This document shows, piece by piece, positions 53,172-59,709 of a stretch of 59,709 nucleotides of DNA (the stretch's first letter is position 1; the number at the start of each line of letters is the position of its first letter). Under the pieces are notes generated by a model, which ran no database searches, was not told where the DNA came from, and worked only from the letters and a program-made list of their open reading frames with translations. The stretch covers positions 1 through 59,709 of the forward strand of contig JAFUJQ010000021.1 of assembly GCA_017473705.1 (NCBI GenBank), written 5' to 3'. Origin of the DNA: Bacteroidales bacterium. GTDB taxonomy: Bacteria; Bacteroidota; Bacteroidia; Bacteroidales; UBA932. The translations under genes were made by a program, and so were the position numbers.

Positions 53172-54449
53172 CTACCACTTGGCGAAAGCCGCGTCACTGC
53201 TGATGGTGCGCGCCCTGTCTATCTCGTCAGCCTTGATATACTTCTTCAGCATGGCCACGCTGCTGTGCCCCGTGACCGAGCATATATTGAAGACATTCAT
53301 GCCGGCAAGATACATCAGAGTGGCCCCGGTCCTTCGCGCCGTGTGGGTGTGGACCAGTTCATACTTCGGATGAGTCTCCAAGGTCGGGACTCCGCCTGAG
53401 GTGGTCTCTATCGTCACGGCCTCATCCACCCCGGCAAGCCTTGCGATCTCCTTTATGCAGGAGTTGATCGCCTTCTCGGGAATATGCGGAAGAGAGTACC
53501 CATACTTCTCCATGATGTCCTTCAGCTCTTCCTTTGCAGGGATGGACACATTGGCCCCGGTCTTCTTCTGTCTTATGTTTATGATCACATTCCCCTCAGC
53601 ATCCCTGATGATGTTCTCGGGGCCGATATTGTTGTAGTCAGACACCCGCTGGGCTGTATAGACTCCCACCATGAATATGTCCCTTGCATACTCATGGTTT
53701 CTCGAAAGGTGCGATATGTCCACATCCCTGATGGCTGTAAGCTCATCCTTCGTCAGGTAGACATTGTCCACATCCTTCCTCCGTGCCCGGAAGTTCCTTC
53801 CCAGGCACTTTCGGTTGCTGTGGTAGCCCTCCGACTCGGCAGCCGCAAGGATCGTGGCGAGAGTATTCAGGCACTTGGCCGCCGTGTTCACATTATATCT
53901 GCGTTCATTATAGAGATAGTCAAGGAACTTCGTACGGAACTCGAAATCTATCTCATCGAAATCATACACGCGTCCTGATTTCCCGAAGAAATCCGCCAGG
54001 AGATTGCGCACAGAGGTGACAGACTTCACGGTTCCCTTCGAGAAATTCGTGCCCTTTGCGGTCTTTCGCGTCCCCTTCTCCGCCTGATTACGATACAGGT
54101 CGACATACTTCTCCAGGGTCATATAGTGCTTCTGCTTCTGGATTGACTCCCTGAATACAATCTCATACACGATCTGGCGCACCTGATCTGCGGTGACGCC
54201 CTTCCTGCTGACGATCCTCTCGTCAATAGTCAGTCTGATTTCCTCCAACTTCTGAAAGGTCCTCCTTCCCTCAGCCGTATTGATGAAATCTCGGAACGAC
54301 ATGCTGGTTCTCGAGAGGTTCCACTTATGAACCGGCACCATAAGATGAGTAGACTGCCGGATGTTGATCTTCAAGATCGATGACTGCACACGGACACATA
54401 TAGGCGCAAAGCCGTTCTTCTTCGTGCGCAAAAAGAAAGTTGTTGCCAT
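53172..54449 (-). CDS. tyrosine-type site-specific recombinase (phage-integrase family)
   Basis: 425 residues from the ATG at 54449 (MATTFFLRTKKNG), the usual start of Bacteroidetes recombinases; an upstream TTG is rejected. Arm-binding and SAM-like N-terminal domains precede the catalytic domain with R (YTAQRVSDY), K (RQKKTG), HTHTARRTGATL (H-x-x-R), TGHSS (H) and the nucleophile Y (LKKYIKAD). All catalytic residues are present. It ends 8 bp from the convergent GH95 stop and points away from a fimbrial gene with no start codon. Similar enzymes control surface phase variation in Bacteroidales. Confidence 0.93.
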   Translation of the reverse strand: MATTFFLRTKKNGFAPICVRVQSSILKINIRQSTHLMVPVHKWNLSRTSMSFRDFINTAEGRRTFQKLEEIRLTIDERIVSRKGVTADQVRQIVYEIVFRESIQKQKHYMTLEKYVDLYRNQAEKGTRKTAKGTNFSKGTVKSVTSVRNLLADFFGKSGRVYDFDEIDFEFRTKFLDYLYNERRYNVNTAAKCLNTLATILAAAESEGYHSNRKCLGRNFRARRKDVDNVYLTKDELTAIRDVDISHLSRNHEYARDIFMVGVYTAQRVSDYNNIGPENIIRDAEGNVIINIRQKKTGANVSIPAKEELKDIMEKYGYSLPHIPEKAINSCIKEIARLAGVDEAVTIETTSGGVPTLETHPKYELVHTHTARRTGATLMYLAGMNVFNICSVTGHSSVAMLKKYIKADEIDRARTISSDAAFAKW

Positions 54450-54699
54450 AGTCAAGAATTCATGATTAAGTTTAGGGTGCGGCTGCAATCGTACACAATG
54501 TGCAAGTACCCGTTTAGTACCACTTCAAACAAGTGTCCCCACAAGTCGCTATTCTCCCTACATATAAACAATTAGACCAATAGATTAATCTTTATTCTCC
54601 CCCGCCCCGCACCTTGACGGTCCCCCTGAAAAGCACCGTTCAAGTACCACAATATAACAAGAATATGCTTGTGCAAGCATACATAGGGGAATTTATTGG
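54450..54699. other. region between recombinase and fimbrial cluster, likely recombination and control site
   Basis: No gene and no consensus promoter found. It contains AGTACC three times (54505-54510, 54516-54521, 54643-54648), a CACTT/AAGTG hairpin (54521-54535) and the perfect 18-bp palindrome at 54664-54681. The open frame of the fimbrial gene enters from a stop at 54655 without any ATG, GTG or TTG before 54889. Confidence 0.6.
54664..54681. repeat. 18-bp palindrome, candidate recombinase site
   Basis: TATGCTTG-TG-CAAGCATA, perfect 8-bp arms around a 2-bp centre, 18 bp upstream of the putative lipobox Cys codon of the truncated fimbrial gene. Confidence 0.6.
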
Positions 54700-55710
54700 T
54701 GCGGCAAGCACCACGCCACTCCCGACGAGAGCGACACCAAGATTCCTATCGACTTCAGCGCCATTTCCAACACAGCTGAAGTAAAATCCACCACGCCTCT
54801 CTCATCCATCCACGATGACTTCGGCGTCTGGGGCATCGCCAGAAATTCATCCCAGCCGTACGACTACATACTTTGGGAGCAGGATCGCATGACTCAAGTT
54901 GTTGAGTCCTCTAACGGGTATGTTCCAGTCGAAGCAGCCTTCTGGCTCTCAGGCTACACATATAATTTCATAGCCATTGCTCCATTCATATCAGGTGTAG
55001 ACCACCTTGAGGTAATAGGTAAGACATCTTCATCGAATGACGCCGTGACATTCGACTACAGCATGGCGGATAAATACAACAAGTCGTCAGCGAACTATGA
55101 TCTTGACTTCGACCTCATGGGAGCTGTCGCACAGAGTACCGTAGATAAGGCGGCAACACATAAGTCACAGCAGGACCTCACCTTCTGGCATATGCTTGCA
55201 CAGATCAACATAAAGCTTGCATTCAAGGATGAAAGCGGCAATGCCACTACAGGATCAGCGGAGCTTCGTCTTCAGAATGTAGACCAGGATGCTTCGTATA
55301 GAATCACTTCGCTCGCCAGCACGGATTCACAGAATCCTGACAAAGTATCCTTGGAGGTCAATTGCACCAATACATCCAAGACATACACAGTCAACCCTTT
55401 AGTATTTGACGGTACAAATGATAACAGGAACTCGTCAGCTCCCGCAGTCAACACCTGGACATGGACACTAAATATAGTTCCTCAGAACATTGAAGACTTC
55501 AGGTTGACGCTTGACTTCAACATCGGAGGAGACGAATTCCGTAATTATGAGATAAACCTCTTCCCGAGCAGTACAACTCCAAAGGAATACGGCTACAACC
55601 AGCAATACAACTGGAATATCACCTTGACTCCGAAATACGTAAGGTTCGAAGAACCCCAAGTAACCCCATGGCAGTCAGGCACAGAAATCCCTGGAGTCGA
55701 AATCCAATAA
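54700..55710 (+). CDS. fimbrillin-family protein lacking start codon and signal peptide
   Basis: 336 codons from a TGC codon that could be the mature lipobox Cys (CGKHHATPDESD). IPIDFSAISNTAEVKS, DFGVWGIARNS, FIAIAPFISGVDHL, LTFWHMLAQINIKLAF and the C-terminal VTPWQSGTEIPGVEIQ fit the fimbrillin (Mfa1/FimA-like) family, whose members are exported lipoproteins processed into fimbriae. No initiator lies before the ATG at 54889, which is internal to the domain. Either a 5'-deleted gene or a cassette activated by DNA rearrangement. Confidence 0.8.
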   Translation, partial: CGKHHATPDESDTKIPIDFSAISNTAEVKSTTPLSSIHDDFGVWGIARNSSQPYDYILWEQDRMTQVVESSNGYVPVEAAFWLSGYTYNFIAIAPFISGVDHLEVIGKTSSSNDAVTFDYSMADKYNKSSANYDLDFDLMGAVAQSTVDKAATHKSQQDLTFWHMLAQINIKLAFKDESGNATTGSAELRLQNVDQDASYRITSLASTDSQNPDKVSLEVNCTNTSKTYTVNPLVFDGTNDNRNSSAPAVNTWTWTLNIVPQNIEDFRLTLDFNIGGDEFRNYEINLFPSSTTPKEYGYNQQYNWNITLTPKYVRFEEPQVTPWQSGTEIPGVEIQ

Positions 55711-55721
55711 AAACATAGAGA

Positions 55722-56786
55722 ATGAATAGGATACACATCATCATTATACTGGCAATAGCCATTCTGTCTGGTTGTGATAAGCATCCAGAACCGAATGGAG
55801 GGTTGGCAAACGGACCATATTCCTATATCTTCTTCGATGCAGGTGTGGTCAGTACCAAAGGTGAGTTGGTTGAGGGCGAGACCCTTCCATCATATACGGG
55901 AACTGCTTTCGGTGTTATGGGCTTCAGACCAGACGGATCAACACCGATATTCGACATGTATGGCACAGCCGATGATAAAACAGAGTCTGCTTTTGACAAT
56001 GTAGCAGTGATGTACCGACCAGGAAAAAATGCAGCATTCCGATATGACGAGCTGGCAACGTGGCATGGTGGGGAACATGACTTTTATGCCTATTATCCAT
56101 TTAGCTATACTGGAGGAGCAGGCAAGGCCATTTCTAATATTGGCAAGAGCGGAAATCGCCCGTATGTCGCATATACACAACCAGCGCAACTGAACACAAT
56201 GACGGATGTAATGACAGCATACGCTCCAGATCAGACAGCATCAACATCTGCTGTGCAGCTGATATTCAACCATAGGCTGTTTGCCTTTGACGTGGTCTTG
56301 AATAATAATCAGTCTGAATCATTAAGGGACATCATAATTAATGATGCAGTCATTCAGTTCTATGAGATTCCTGAAAGTGCCACACTGTATTTTGACACTC
56401 CTACAGTTGTAGATTCGCCTTCTGGTTCCCAGACAATTTCACACGATTTCATCACATCGCCTGTCACTGTCCATCACCCGACCGGAAACGCCACTTCTGT
56501 AACATATATTTTCAACCAGGGTTCGTCTGCAACAGCAAATCCTTTCCTGTTCCTGCCATGTACTGCCTTAAAGCTGAAGTTTGAAGTCACTTATGTCAAT
56601 TCATGGAACGAAGTGAGAACATTCACAGTGGACCATAGCTCGACGGCACTTACTCTATCAGGAGGCTTTCAGGCTGGACATAGATATGCTTTGGTGCTTA
56701 ATGTCAGTGACAAAGGACAAGGAATCGAATTTGTGCCAACACTTGTAGACTGGACAAACAAGAACCTTGATATAGAGTTCAATTAA
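55722..56786 (+). CDS. fimbrillin-family lipoprotein
   Basis: 354 residues with a complete signal peptide and lipobox LSGC (Cys at about residue 18). STKGELVEGETLPSYTGTAFGVMGF, YDELATWHGGEHDFYAYYP and QLIFNHRLFAFDVVL are typical of the fimbrillin N-domain. The terminal VPTLVDWTNKNLDIEFN resembles the C-terminal strand used in donor-strand assembly. Codons are AT-richer than the housekeeping genes. 11 bp after the truncated fimbrillin gene. Confidence 0.82.
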   Translation: MNRIHIIIILAIAILSGCDKHPEPNGGLANGPYSYIFFDAGVVSTKGELVEGETLPSYTGTAFGVMGFRPDGSTPIFDMYGTADDKTESAFDNVAVMYRPGKNAAFRYDELATWHGGEHDFYAYYPFSYTGGAGKAISNIGKSGNRPYVAYTQPAQLNTMTDVMTAYAPDQTASTSAVQLIFNHRLFAFDVVLNNNQSESLRDIIINDAVIQFYEIPESATLYFDTPTVVDSPSGSQTISHDFITSPVTVHHPTGNATSVTYIFNQGSSATANPFLFLPCTALKLKFEVTYVNSWNEVRTFTVDHSSTALTLSGGFQAGHRYALVLNVSDKGQGIEFVPTLVDWTNKNLDIEFN

Positions 56787-56799
56787 CTTATAATACTAT

Positions 56800-59367
56800 A
56801 TGAAGAGTATCCTAAACTTTATATACATAGTCAGCATTGTCCTGCTTGTAGCTTCATGTTCGCTGAAGGAGGCATATGAAACAGACCACAGCAATGGAGG
56901 AGTTGAGTTCGTGCTGAGACCGACTTCTTATCTTGGTTATAATGTCGCCACAAAAGCAGCGACAATCCTACCGTCTGATCAGCTCACAGCTTTGGAAAGT
57001 AAGATTGTGAATGCATATTTTCTCGCGTTCAAGGCCGACGGCACCAGGATTATGAAAGAGAACTTGACTGTCAGTGAGACAGGAATTTCATCTGTCACGT
57101 TATTTCCGGAAAACTCGAATGACAACAGGGTGACAGTATGCTTTCTTGTAAATATGCCGGAAAGTTTCGTTGAGTCTCTTGACAATGTCAGCAAACTCAA
57201 CACTCCTCTTTCTCTTCAGTATGCTGAGGGTCATATTGGTATCCCTGTCCTGAATGGTCAGCAGTGCCTTCCTATGTTCGGCATGCAAGATTATACCCTA
57301 TTCGCGTCTTCCACAAGACAAACAGTTGCGGTTGATGTCAGGAGACTAGTGGCAAAGGTTGTGGTAAATTTGGGAGTAGATATGACAGATGGCCTTGGCG
57401 GCATCATTCAATCATCGGCTAATGCATATTATAGTCTCAAGAATTTCTCTATCACAAATCTGCCAAATAAAGTCAGTTTAATTCAACCTGCGACAGAAAG
57501 TGCATGGGTTAGAGAGGTTGGCACAGATTACTTTGAAGATGTTATTTCTGCCGATCTGTCGTCACCGGTCAAGATATATGATACCGATGCAGCAAACGAC
57601 AAGAACAAGTCATATTCTTTTACGTTCTATGCGCCGGAATATCTTCTGCAACCTTCAGTCACATTAACGACTGCGCAGAAACTTATTACCAGTAATCAAT
57701 GGAACAAGCACACCCGTTACGAGGAGGACAAACGTCCAATATACATCACTCTTAACGGTTTCCTTCACACTCCTGATGACGAGGATTTCTCTGTGGATTA
57801 CAGTCTCTATTTTGGGGAGGATGCATATGATAATTTCAGCTTGCTGAGAAACACTCAGTACACCAACAATCTTTCCATAACCGGAAGCGATCATATCACT
57901 AGCGATGATGGTAGAGTGGAGTTGAACCCGCTCAACCTTGTCGATGTCTATGGTCAGGCCGCTAACTGTTACGTGATTTCAAGCTCTGGCCCATATCAGC
58001 TTGATACATATGAAGGAGTAGTGAAGAACATTGATGGTTCGACACCAAAACTCAAAGGAACGCCTGTGGTTGTGTGGAATGACAATTCCAACAATGTTAT
58101 TGAATTCATTCAGACAACGAGCGACAATAAGATTCTGTTCACGGTAAACGGCAATGAGCCAGGCGCCACTGTTACTGCAGGCAATGCAGTCATCGGCATA
58201 GAATCAAGCGAGGGCAAACTGCTTTGGTCGTGGCACATATGGTTCAGTCCTTCTGACAACAGGCCTGACTCTGATGTCAACCTTGATAGATATCCAAACG
58301 AAAGTGGTAACTGGAACCAAATGTACATCATGAACAGGGCCTTGGGGGCAACAGATGTTATCGACGTTGACCTGCTTGGTCTTATTCCGAGCTTGAGCGG
58401 ATTCCGTTGGAGTGGTGGCTTATATTATCAGTGGGGCCGTAAAGACCCTATGTTTTCGCCCAAAGCTGGTACAAGTGTGGAAACTGGTCAGACAACAATC
58501 GAAGCAACAGGCGCAAGTTACATCAATTCTGTTCAAAACCCGAATACATTCTACAAAGATTGGGATGCAAACATAGCTGGATGGGCTGCGACAAAGTCCA
58601 AGAATGACCCATGTCCTCCAGGATACAAAGTTCCATCTAAAGATGTATGGCGCTCTACAAACCCTGACCAAGACTTGGAGGTACCGGTTTTGGGAAGTCT
58701 GACAACAGCAGAAGCCTATACTTATAACTTAACGCGAAATGCTACTGATCAGTCAGCAAGTCCGTTCGTCTTTTACCCATATAGCGGAAACTATAACGAG
58801 GCGGGAGAATTTCAGGAAAACATTCACACTGAGGGTGTTGATTATACTCCTGATGATTATATAATAGAGTCTGACTTTCCCGAAATAGGTGACACATACT
58901 CCGGTCTAGGTGCACTTGCTCGGCCTCAAACATGCTATAGAGTTAAAAATGTTGATTATAGTTACGAAGCTGATGTCAATCATGGTATATTATGGGCTAA
59001 TGATAAATACTCATTAAAATATGGTTTCTCGTCCATATCTTTAAATAGTAACAGCGGAGGAATTTTTGGTGCGCTTACTGACTATCTTCAACGCACATTT
59101 AATTGCGACTACCAGACGGTAACTGTAAAGTATACCTCTTCTGGTAGTGTCTTAAACCGCATTTATACTGTTAGCGCTTTAGAAGATGGAGAATGGCAGA
59201 ATCAACAAACCGTTACTATTAGAAGTAACGTAACATTACACACTCTGGTTTCCCAAGGAGTTATTGACTATCTTTCTACCCTGCATTCTCAAGATGCTTA
59301 TACATATGCTAAAACGACCGATGTCAGCCCAGCATCTGGATGCCAAGTCCGCTGTGTAAAAGAATAG
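56800..59367 (+). CDS. large fimbrial tip-type lipoprotein (DUF4906-like) with FISUMP-like C-terminal module
   Basis: 855 residues. Signal peptide with lipobox VASC (Cys at about residue 20). The N-terminal ~380 residues (IVNAYFLAFKADGTRIMKEN, VDVRRLVAKVVVNLGV, LRNTQYTNNLSITGSD) resemble DUF4906-type tip adhesins of Bacteroidales. From about residue 385 a second module carries ANCYVI, LLWSWHIWF, MNRALGA, YYQWGRKDPM, DPCPPGYKVP and ends VRCVKE, as in the collagen-like protein at the left end. Probably the tip or adhesive subunit. The 3' half is strongly AT-rich. Confidence 0.82.
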   Translation: MKSILNFIYIVSIVLLVASCSLKEAYETDHSNGGVEFVLRPTSYLGYNVATKAATILPSDQLTALESKIVNAYFLAFKADGTRIMKENLTVSETGISSVTLFPENSNDNRVTVCFLVNMPESFVESLDNVSKLNTPLSLQYAEGHIGIPVLNGQQCLPMFGMQDYTLFASSTRQTVAVDVRRLVAKVVVNLGVDMTDGLGGIIQSSANAYYSLKNFSITNLPNKVSLIQPATESAWVREVGTDYFEDVISADLSSPVKIYDTDAANDKNKSYSFTFYAPEYLLQPSVTLTTAQKLITSNQWNKHTRYEEDKRPIYITLNGFLHTPDDEDFSVDYSLYFGEDAYDNFSLLRNTQYTNNLSITGSDHITSDDGRVELNPLNLVDVYGQAANCYVISSSGPYQLDTYEGVVKNIDGSTPKLKGTPVVVWNDNSNNVIEFIQTTSDNKILFTVNGNEPGATVTAGNAVIGIESSEGKLLWSWHIWFSPSDNRPDSDVNLDRYPNESGNWNQMYIMNRALGATDVIDVDLLGLIPSLSGFRWSGGLYYQWGRKDPMFSPKAGTSVETGQTTIEATGASYINSVQNPNTFYKDWDANIAGWAATKSKNDPCPPGYKVPSKDVWRSTNPDQDLEVPVLGSLTTAEAYTYNLTRNATDQSASPFVFYPYSGNYNEAGEFQENIHTEGVDYTPDDYIIESDFPEIGDTYSGLGALARPQTCYRVKNVDYSYEADVNHGILWANDKYSLKYGFSSISLNSNSGGIFGALTDYLQRTFNCDYQTVTVKYTSSGSVLNRIYTVSALEDGEWQNQQTVTIRSNVTLHTLVSQGVIDYLSTLHSQDAYTYAKTTDVSPASGCQVRCVKE

Positions 59368-59386: not shown

Positions 59387-59444
59387 CAACAACCGGCCGC
59401 TACTTCATGGATGTTCGTTCCATGCCTGTAGCGGCCTGTTGTTG
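59387..59444 (+). terminator. long hairpin after the fimbrial cluster
   Basis: CAACAACCGGCCGCTAC pairs with GTAGCGGCCTGTTGTTG (one mismatch) around a 24-nt loop, 20 bp after the stop. No T tract, so termination is likely but not certain. Confidence 0.55.
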
Positions 59445-59613
59445 TCCGCGCCGCCCTCCCACCATCTCCACCATCTCCACCATCGCCTCCAGCCGCCTCC
59501 CTCCCGTCTGCATGTCCGCTTGCAATATCCATCAGCATGCCAGCCTTGCCTAGACGCCTGCCTATCCGTGTAAGCATCCGACGAAATGCATATTGACCAA
59601 TTAGCCGCCATTA
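59445..59613. other. non-coding stretch after the fimbrial hairpin
   Basis: No gene found. CACCATCTC recurs as a short direct repeat (about 59459-59485). CCGCCATTAC (59606-59615) pairs imperfectly with GTAGTGGCGG just inside the following decamer array. Confidence 0.5.
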
Positions 59614-59709
59614 CTGAGGTAGTACCCGGTAGTGGCGGCTAGTAGTTGGTAGTAACTGGTTATTTCCTGCTATTAGCGGGTAGTACCTGCCAGTTGCAAG
59701 GTAGTAGCT
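59614..59709. repeat. degenerate 10-bp tandem repeat running off the window
   Basis: Successive decamers read AGTACCCGGT, AGTGGCGGCT, AGTAGTTGGT, AGTAACTGGT, TATTTCCTGC, TATTAGCGGG, TAGTACCTGC, CAGTTGCAAG, GTAGTAGCT, with a one-base slip in the middle. Consensus about GTAGTAnCTG. The array continues beyond the end. Confidence 0.7.

Follow-up and report, generated by a model that had tools for sequence, protein, structure and literature searches.

Phase variation in Bacteroidales is described, in the available portions of the literature, as promoter inversion, shuffling of restriction systems, SusC/D shufflons, and the movement of larger segments into expression loci. The tyrosine-recombinase switches of Bacteroides in Weinacht 2004 reportedly involve invertible promoter regions. 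In the pilE/pilS system of Neisseria, silent copies without the pilin 5' end alter one major pilin by RecA-dependent gene conversion. In the integron attI-attC reaction and in attP-attB reactions of the lambda and CTnDOT types, one site carries extra recombinase sites and the other consists of the core only. The nearest printed system that we have seen is the region EE shufflon of Bacteroides fragilis. According to the accessible part of its description, large segments invert and thereby place alternative genes of the ragA/susC type downstream of an invertible promoter; the inverted repeats are extensive, and the repeat region there overlaps the start codon (PMC5729914). The available text of PMC12632263 cites work on tyrosine recombinases that switch outer surface proteins in Bacteroides and on a fimbria-like locus that is phase-variable (Weinacht 2004), and it also states that diversity-generating retroelements act on Bacteroides tip pilins. 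Genes of the fimbrillin family lie near invertons in a survey of the gut, as far as its accessible text goes (PMC11892184).

We analyzed a stretch of 59,709 nucleotides from a Bacteroidales bacterium (the window), which is the whole of contig C3 in a draft assembly of 171 contigs with a completeness of 71%. The window contains a fimbrillin gene without a start codon beside a tyrosine recombinase gene. We consider it likely that a recombinase operates an exchange, probably an inversion, that places cassettes of accessory pilins and a tip protein behind a major pilin, that gene conversion acts in addition, and that this locus is the silent half of the system.

Such an exchange would resemble the intergenic shufflon of region EE in moving alternative surface-protein genes to one expression point (PMC5729914, in part). 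Unlike region EE in the same partial text, with its extensive inverted repeats and the invertible promoter upstream, the putative core in the window is short and lies at the Cys codon that follows the signal peptide, only the silent side has heptamer pairs, and the units are pilus cassettes. As in Bacteroidales shufflons, there are silent genes without a 5' end (three of the four loci known) and an expressed partner at a shared site (all three relatives). The locus shares a tyrosine recombinase and a pilin-type surface operon with the systems of Weinacht 2004, as far as these are covered by the sources at hand; unlike in those systems, the split falls within the coding sequence, close to the signal-peptide boundary, and the exchange would involve whole cassettes. 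Silent copies without a 5' end and an expressed relative elsewhere are common to this locus and Neisseria pilE/pilS, but the window locus has a recombinase, arm-like sites, and a minor-pilin operon. The repeated putative sites beside the core of one partner only, as read from sequence, recall attI-attC and attP-attB pairs of the lambda and CTnDOT types; however, no cassette array or element ends were seen, and the unit is part of a pilus operon. Diversification of the type V pilus tip is also the outcome of diversity-generating retroelements in the partial text of PMC12632263, but these act by targeted mutation, whereas whole tip cassettes would be exchanged here. The arrangement is not described in the available portions of PMC5903667, PMC12632263, PMC11892184, PMC5729914, and PMC10939037. 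No description of a tip-cassette exchange with one-sided arm-like sites was found in the literature searched, in which subscription journals were thinly covered, and one may still have been published.

The start-less fimbrillin gene and the adjacent recombinase

The open frame of the first fimbrillin gene, acc1 (+ strand, 54658-55710), begins right after a TAA codon (54655-54657). A preliminary description of this DNA stated that the frame runs back to this stop codon with no start before 54889, and reading of the codons confirmed it: ATG, GTG, and TTG are all absent upstream of the ATG at 54889, which is the first start codon. The frame matches the fimbrillin family Mfa_like_1 of Pfam (E = 6.6e-15). 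Fourteen codons without the look of a signal peptide precede TGC 54700, a lipobox-like Cys codon, which was correctly named as the opening of the mature protein; the mature part extends over 54700-55710. The next gene, acc2 (+ strand, 55722-56786, 354 residues, Mfa_like_1), encodes a second accessory fimbrillin with its own start and a lipoprotein-like signal. PF13149 was found in both acc1 and acc2, as for type V (FimA/Mfa-like) pilus lipoproteins. The large last gene (+ strand, 56800-59367, 855 residues) probably encodes the tip pilin. It has a normal start and a lipoprotein-like N terminus, as does acc2, in agreement with the intact signal peptides reported earlier for these two genes. Its match to DUF4906 falls below the cut-off, and it is homologous to the last gene of the silent locus in the related genome G227 (28%, E = 6e-65), while acc2 is homologous to acc3 of that locus (33%).

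The promoter motif of the Bacteroides type is TAnnTTTG. An exact match is absent from the given silent regions of the window and of the relatives G227 and G265, and there is one match, on the minus strand, in that of a third relative, G361. The stretches 59387-59444 and 59569-59709, 3' of the last gene of the window, comprise a strong inverted repeat, then a 26-bp piece common to contigs C165, C154, and C150 of the same genome, and GGTAGTA-rich sequence that reaches the end of the contig.

The tyrosine recombinase gene (- strand, 53172-54449; start at 54449, stop at 53172) is arranged head-to-head with acc1. It is intact and encodes 425 residues with Phage_int_SAM_5 and Phage_integrase domains. 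A complete recombinase close by and in the opposite direction had been proposed, and this is borne out at a distance of 251 bp from the junction. Residues R268, K296, H369, R372, H395, and Y404, which we take to be the catalytic residues of a tyrosine recombinase, are invariant across seven aligned homologs. Two of these seven match Arm-DNA-bind_5 weakly (best E = 0.41). No sequence relative of the recombinase was found in the PDB at E = 0.01, and none of 129 stretches obtained by scanning viral contigs with it was confirmed. A second recombinase of the window genome, 50% identical to the first, is encoded on contig C143 (L063, 67-1386). A gene downstream of it is VirE-like, as named from its translation, and the C143 protein is probably the integrase of a mobile element.

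Related loci, paired heptamers, and the junction

The recombinase clade was found in four of 400 sampled genomes of the same genus, including that of the window, and its members are 67-71% identical. In a profile scan, in which up to four candidates per genome were scored, they reached 891 (G227), 887 (window genome, G000), 885 (G361), and 767 bits (G265), and the next best score was 491. At an E-value threshold of 1e-60, the profile had matches in 42 of the 400 genomes. Among 166 genomes (those at least 90% complete, plus the window's own), E = 1e-150 was reached by the window genome alone. A search with acc1 matched one of 61 genomes, its own. When GTDB contigs were scanned, 33 matched the pattern and a single relative was confirmed: L044 (SIG155), from a Bacteroidales metagenome assembly, which is G227. 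A two-sequence fimbrillin profile, with up to five candidates per genome scored, matched 13 of the 400 sampled genomes, mostly weakly, with two strong copies each in G227 and G361.

In all four genomes, the clade recombinase is linked to a fimbrillin gene that points away from it. Two genes, one of which encodes PDDEXK_2, lie between them in G227, where the recombinase is about 4 kb from the heptamer pairs described below. The start-less architecture of the window recurs in G227 and G265, and all three frames are open through to a stop codon. The silent first gene therefore lacks a usable start in three of the four loci (G265 has one TTG immediately 5' of the Cys codon), and the silent cassette of G361 retains its start codon.

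Paired heptamers resembling AAGTACC-N4-AAGTACC, with an 11-bp step, are located between the recombinase and the pilin gene in all four loci. We read them as putative arm-type binding sites of the clade recombinase. The preliminary description does not mention them. In the window, the distal pair P1 (AAGTACC-N4-TAGTACC, + strand, 54504-54521) lies at -196/-185 from the Cys codon, and the proximal pair P2 (AAGCACC-N4-AAGTACC, + strand, 54631-54648) at -69/-58. The proximal pair is placed at exactly -69 from the junction Cys codon in all three start-less loci (window, G227, and G265). G361 has no Cys codon at the junction, and its value of -69 depends on a register set by the analyst, with the spacing holding within 1 bp; its proximal pair is 67 bp from the first base common to both gene copies, compared with 68 bp in G227 and G265. 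The distal pair is found at -196 in the window and at -171 and about -183 elsewhere, and one of its halves is degenerate in G265.

With one mismatch allowed per half, seven such pairs were counted in 433,554 strand-bases of the window and the fetched contigs, all at the four clade loci, from which the motif had been defined before counting. No pair was found within 1 kb of the expression cores in the three loci that have one, coverage in G361 reaching about 0.6 kb downstream, to the contig end. A looser test, in which two similar pairs of any heptamer were accepted, was positive in four of four pilus regions (about 300 bp each, picked around the junction). It was positive in two of 28 upstream regions (195-500 bp) at other recombinase loci, which represent 26 distinct places because L006/L080 and L007/L090 repeat, and in none of 100 mononucleotide shuffles of each region. 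One of the two positive upstream regions belongs to a sister recombinase in G321 (421 bits; locus L079, 1202-1445), which is accompanied by an AGTACCA heptamer in two 11-bp pairs. They face the opposite way relative to the recombinase gene when compared with those of the pilus loci, and no pilin gene was recognized among the translated frames beside it.

The putative crossover core GTG-N7-CAC (+ strand, 54699-54711) overlaps the lipobox-like Cys codon (TGC GGC AAG CAC, encoding C-G-K-H). It was placed by position, as the boundary of identity between silent and expressed copies in G227 and G265 corresponds to this point. The cores of the window, G227 (TGT GGC GGG CAC), and G265 (TGT GCG GGG CAC) share GTG-N7-CAC and encode Cys-x-x-His. 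The core sequence of G361 differs, with GCAC kept at the same register. In G227, about 23 codons past the core Cys, there is a hydrophobic, signal-like stretch that has a lipobox-like Cys of its own; this gene therefore has a lipobox besides the one at the core.

Other candidate sites were rejected. A palindrome near the junction had been named as a sequence to search for in the genome; it is real in the window (54665-54680), yet it was not seen in the junction regions of the relatives. Two sets of 12-nt inverted repeats (54670-54681/55191-55202 and 54691-54702/55364-55375) are at odds with the junction and may plausibly have arisen by chance. A 24-bp match (96%, E = 5.7e-4) to 54684-54707, present in one of 60 relatives, is located in the same reading frame (KGIYWCG) of a lipoprotein-like gene of G018 (L004, 1501-1524) and is probably fortuitous. 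Neither a pilin nor a recombinase was recognized on the 3-kb stretch of G018 that carries it.

Copies of the expression type, having a start and a signal peptide, are located behind another fimbrillin gene in all three relatives. In G227, the copy is directly 3' of a fimbrillin gene taken as the major one, in an operon with DUF3575, DUF5119, and Mfa_like_1 genes that ends in a 1319-residue frame with DUF4906 and P_gingi_FimA; the matches to Mfa_like_1, DUF5119, DUF3575, and DUF4906/P_gingi_FimA were all over their cut-offs. The silent and expressed copies of G227 agree at 25 of 100 positions before the core, at 262 of 270 (97%) after it, and then at 20 of 60 in an ungapped comparison; in a BLAST alignment, the similar stretch reaches 502 bp at 87%. 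In G361, agreement changes from 18 of 100 before the junction to 26 of 28 directly after it, and the likeness, which starts in the 5' untranslated part, amounts to 98.4% across 611 bp, where the contig ends.

The partner search in G265 had been set beforehand as a test. A DNA search gave a 64% copy on contig C79 with an unmatched 5' end, and inspection revealed that this copy is located behind a 386-residue fimbrillin-like frame and has its own start and signal peptide. The silent and expressed genes have exactly 13 bp, GTGTGCGGGGCAC, in common at the Cys codon, flanked by identities of 25/100 before and 27/100 after, and become identical again at the 3' end. The silent gene of G265 is a different pilin, closest to the silent acc2 of G227 (38%) and without a match to acc1 of the window. 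Therefore, the site is common to different cassettes. The preliminary description proposed a comparison of strains; the comparison with relatives revealed silent and expressed copies that diverge abruptly at a position matching about 54699, and the expression-type copies of three relatives support its suggestion that recombination near 54660-54700 fuses acc1 to an expressed 5' end elsewhere. In the expression loci L066 (G227) and L068 (G361), a similar hairpin is located between the presumed major fimbrillin and acc1 (11-bp stem, 8-nt loop, about -20 kcal/mol, z = -6.8 and -6.4). Attenuation of transcription at this hairpin may keep minor pilins less abundant than the shaft.

The proposed exchange and its alternatives

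In the proposed mechanism, accessory pilins and a probable tip protein would be kept as a cassette whose first gene has neither a start codon nor a signal peptide. The recombinase and the two paired heptamers, as arms, would mark the silent site, and the core (54699-54711) would be the point of crossover. The partner would be an arm-less core in the pilus operon, just 3' of the major fimbrillin gene. Crossover would provide the stored protein with a start and a signal peptide and bring the cassette under the control of the operon, and the resident cassette would shift to the silent site. The arms would stay with the recombinase after each exchange; therefore, the exchange could be repeated. 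The likeliest geometry would be an inversion of a segment that holds both cassettes tail to tail. Linkage and spacing suggest that the clade recombinase performs the reaction, and we infer that it is reversible, that it proceeds by inversion, and that the stored cassette is silent. The near identity of the copies beyond the core in G227 and G361 would not be needed for a plain reciprocal inversion, which suggests additional gene conversion. More tentatively, and with somewhat less than an even chance of being correct, the recombinase may be a domesticated integrase acting on a one-sided site (arm-plus-core versus core-only) at the pilin signal-peptide boundary, where one crossover would swap the accessory-pilin and tip cassette while the start, the signal peptide, and the major pilin stay fixed. 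The core sequence would then be free to differ between species because the arms set its position.

A start and signal peptide at the same junction had been expected elsewhere in the genome. Such copies are present in the three relatives; in the window's own 71% complete assembly, neither a DNA search nor a 20-mer search with up to three mismatches found a partner. A two-sequence profile of the major fimbrillin, run without a positive control, gave no match for it in this genome, and a core of the form TGYGSSRRGCAC is absent from the fetched stretches of C46, C134, C143, C165, and C7 (partial for C46 and C7). Contig C46 looks like another fimbrial locus from its translations. Contig C134 carries a part of acc2 and a last gene that are 49% and 45% identical, respectively, to those of the expressed cassette of G227. 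It begins inside acc2, and the expression junction of the window genome is therefore missing from the assembly. The long-tip cassette on C134 is presumably the partner. Two cassette types, with a short and a long tip, are kept in two species, and the short one is at the recombinase in both. As the window genome and G227 have the same types in the same places, they do not demonstrate switching, and no switched state or alternative orientation was seen in any genome examined.

The ends of the contigs bear on the geometry. The last 92 bases of the expression contig of G227 are the first 92 of its silent contig, which would put the cassettes tail to tail and the cores about 15.5 kb apart, as inversion needs; this overlap is suggestive only, because it lies within a repeated PDDEXK_2 gene. 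Silent and expression contigs end on identical 141 bases in G265 (end of C119, start of C79) and in G361 (end of C133, start of C138), and two genes of G265 that are about 65% alike turn identical at the shared 141-mer. Ends that share 141 bases are typical of a branch in the assembly graph at k = 141, a usual maximum of MEGAHIT. Thus, both 5' ends continue into one and the same sequence, either because it is a repeat or because the population is mixed. The shared bases are located well downstream of the core and do not demonstrate switching there, and no third contig with these 141-mers was found in the G265 or G361 assembly. A repeat of about 88 bp follows the stop codon of both G227 last genes (L065 and L066). 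It is present several times in the silent locus, close to PDDEXK_2 (Rpn-type) genes, and is a possible 3' boundary of the cassettes.

RecA-type gene conversion from silent copies, as from pilS to pilE in Neisseria, with the recombinase as a bystander or maker of the archive only, seems unlikely as the whole explanation. It would account for the 97-98% identity past the junction over 270 bp in G227 and 611 bp in G361 and for the return to identity at the 3' end of the G265 gene. However, the 13 bp shared at the G265 junction, with poorly matching sequence on either side, is too little for homologous exchange, and the distance from the junction to the heptamers is kept in four loci.

A mobile element that an integrase has inserted into a fimbrillin gene, with its arms and core as an attP-like region and the present state as just an integration, is a still less probable explanation. 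One integrase with arms and a core does form an attP-like layout, relatives of the recombinase at less than 60% identity occur in phage (49) and plasmid (41) records, and the sister recombinase on C143 is followed by the VirE-like gene. However, a different gene is found 5 to about 50 bp past the 3' end of the recombinase gene in each of the four loci; from their translations, these are GH95-like (window), TonB-like (G227), transposase-like (G361), and imidazolonepropionase-like (G265). A gene at so short a distance leaves no room for the missing 5' part of the fimbrillin gene or for the end of an element.

That the locus is a dead remnant, in which the fimbrillin 5' end was lost by deletion, is very improbable, even though the window contains no start codon for the gene and its own genome yielded no partner. 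G227 and G265 have the same start-less architecture, and none of the three frames is interrupted before its stop codon. The spacing between the heptamers and the junction Cys codon is the same to the base, and three relatives have expression-type copies. Finally, a chimeric contig or another assembly artefact at 54655-54700 can practically be dismissed: the assembly is incomplete and the window is one of its draft contigs, but the order of recombinase, heptamers, and junction is found in three other assemblies with matching spacing (within 1 bp in G361).

Implications for pilus variation

In the recombinase-operated exchange of pilus cassettes proposed here, the exchanged unit would be the adhesive end of a type V pilus. 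The crossover would occur near the signal-peptide boundary, and a single start and signal could therefore serve any in-frame cassette. The position and the choice of partner would be set by one-sided arm sites, without long inverted repeats; therefore, scans that depend on long repeats could overlook such switches. The heptamer pair, the 69-bp spacing, and the start-less lipoprotein frame together provide a signature that can be searched for in complete genomes. If the proposal is correct, cells of one clone could alter the binding target of their pili while the shaft is kept.
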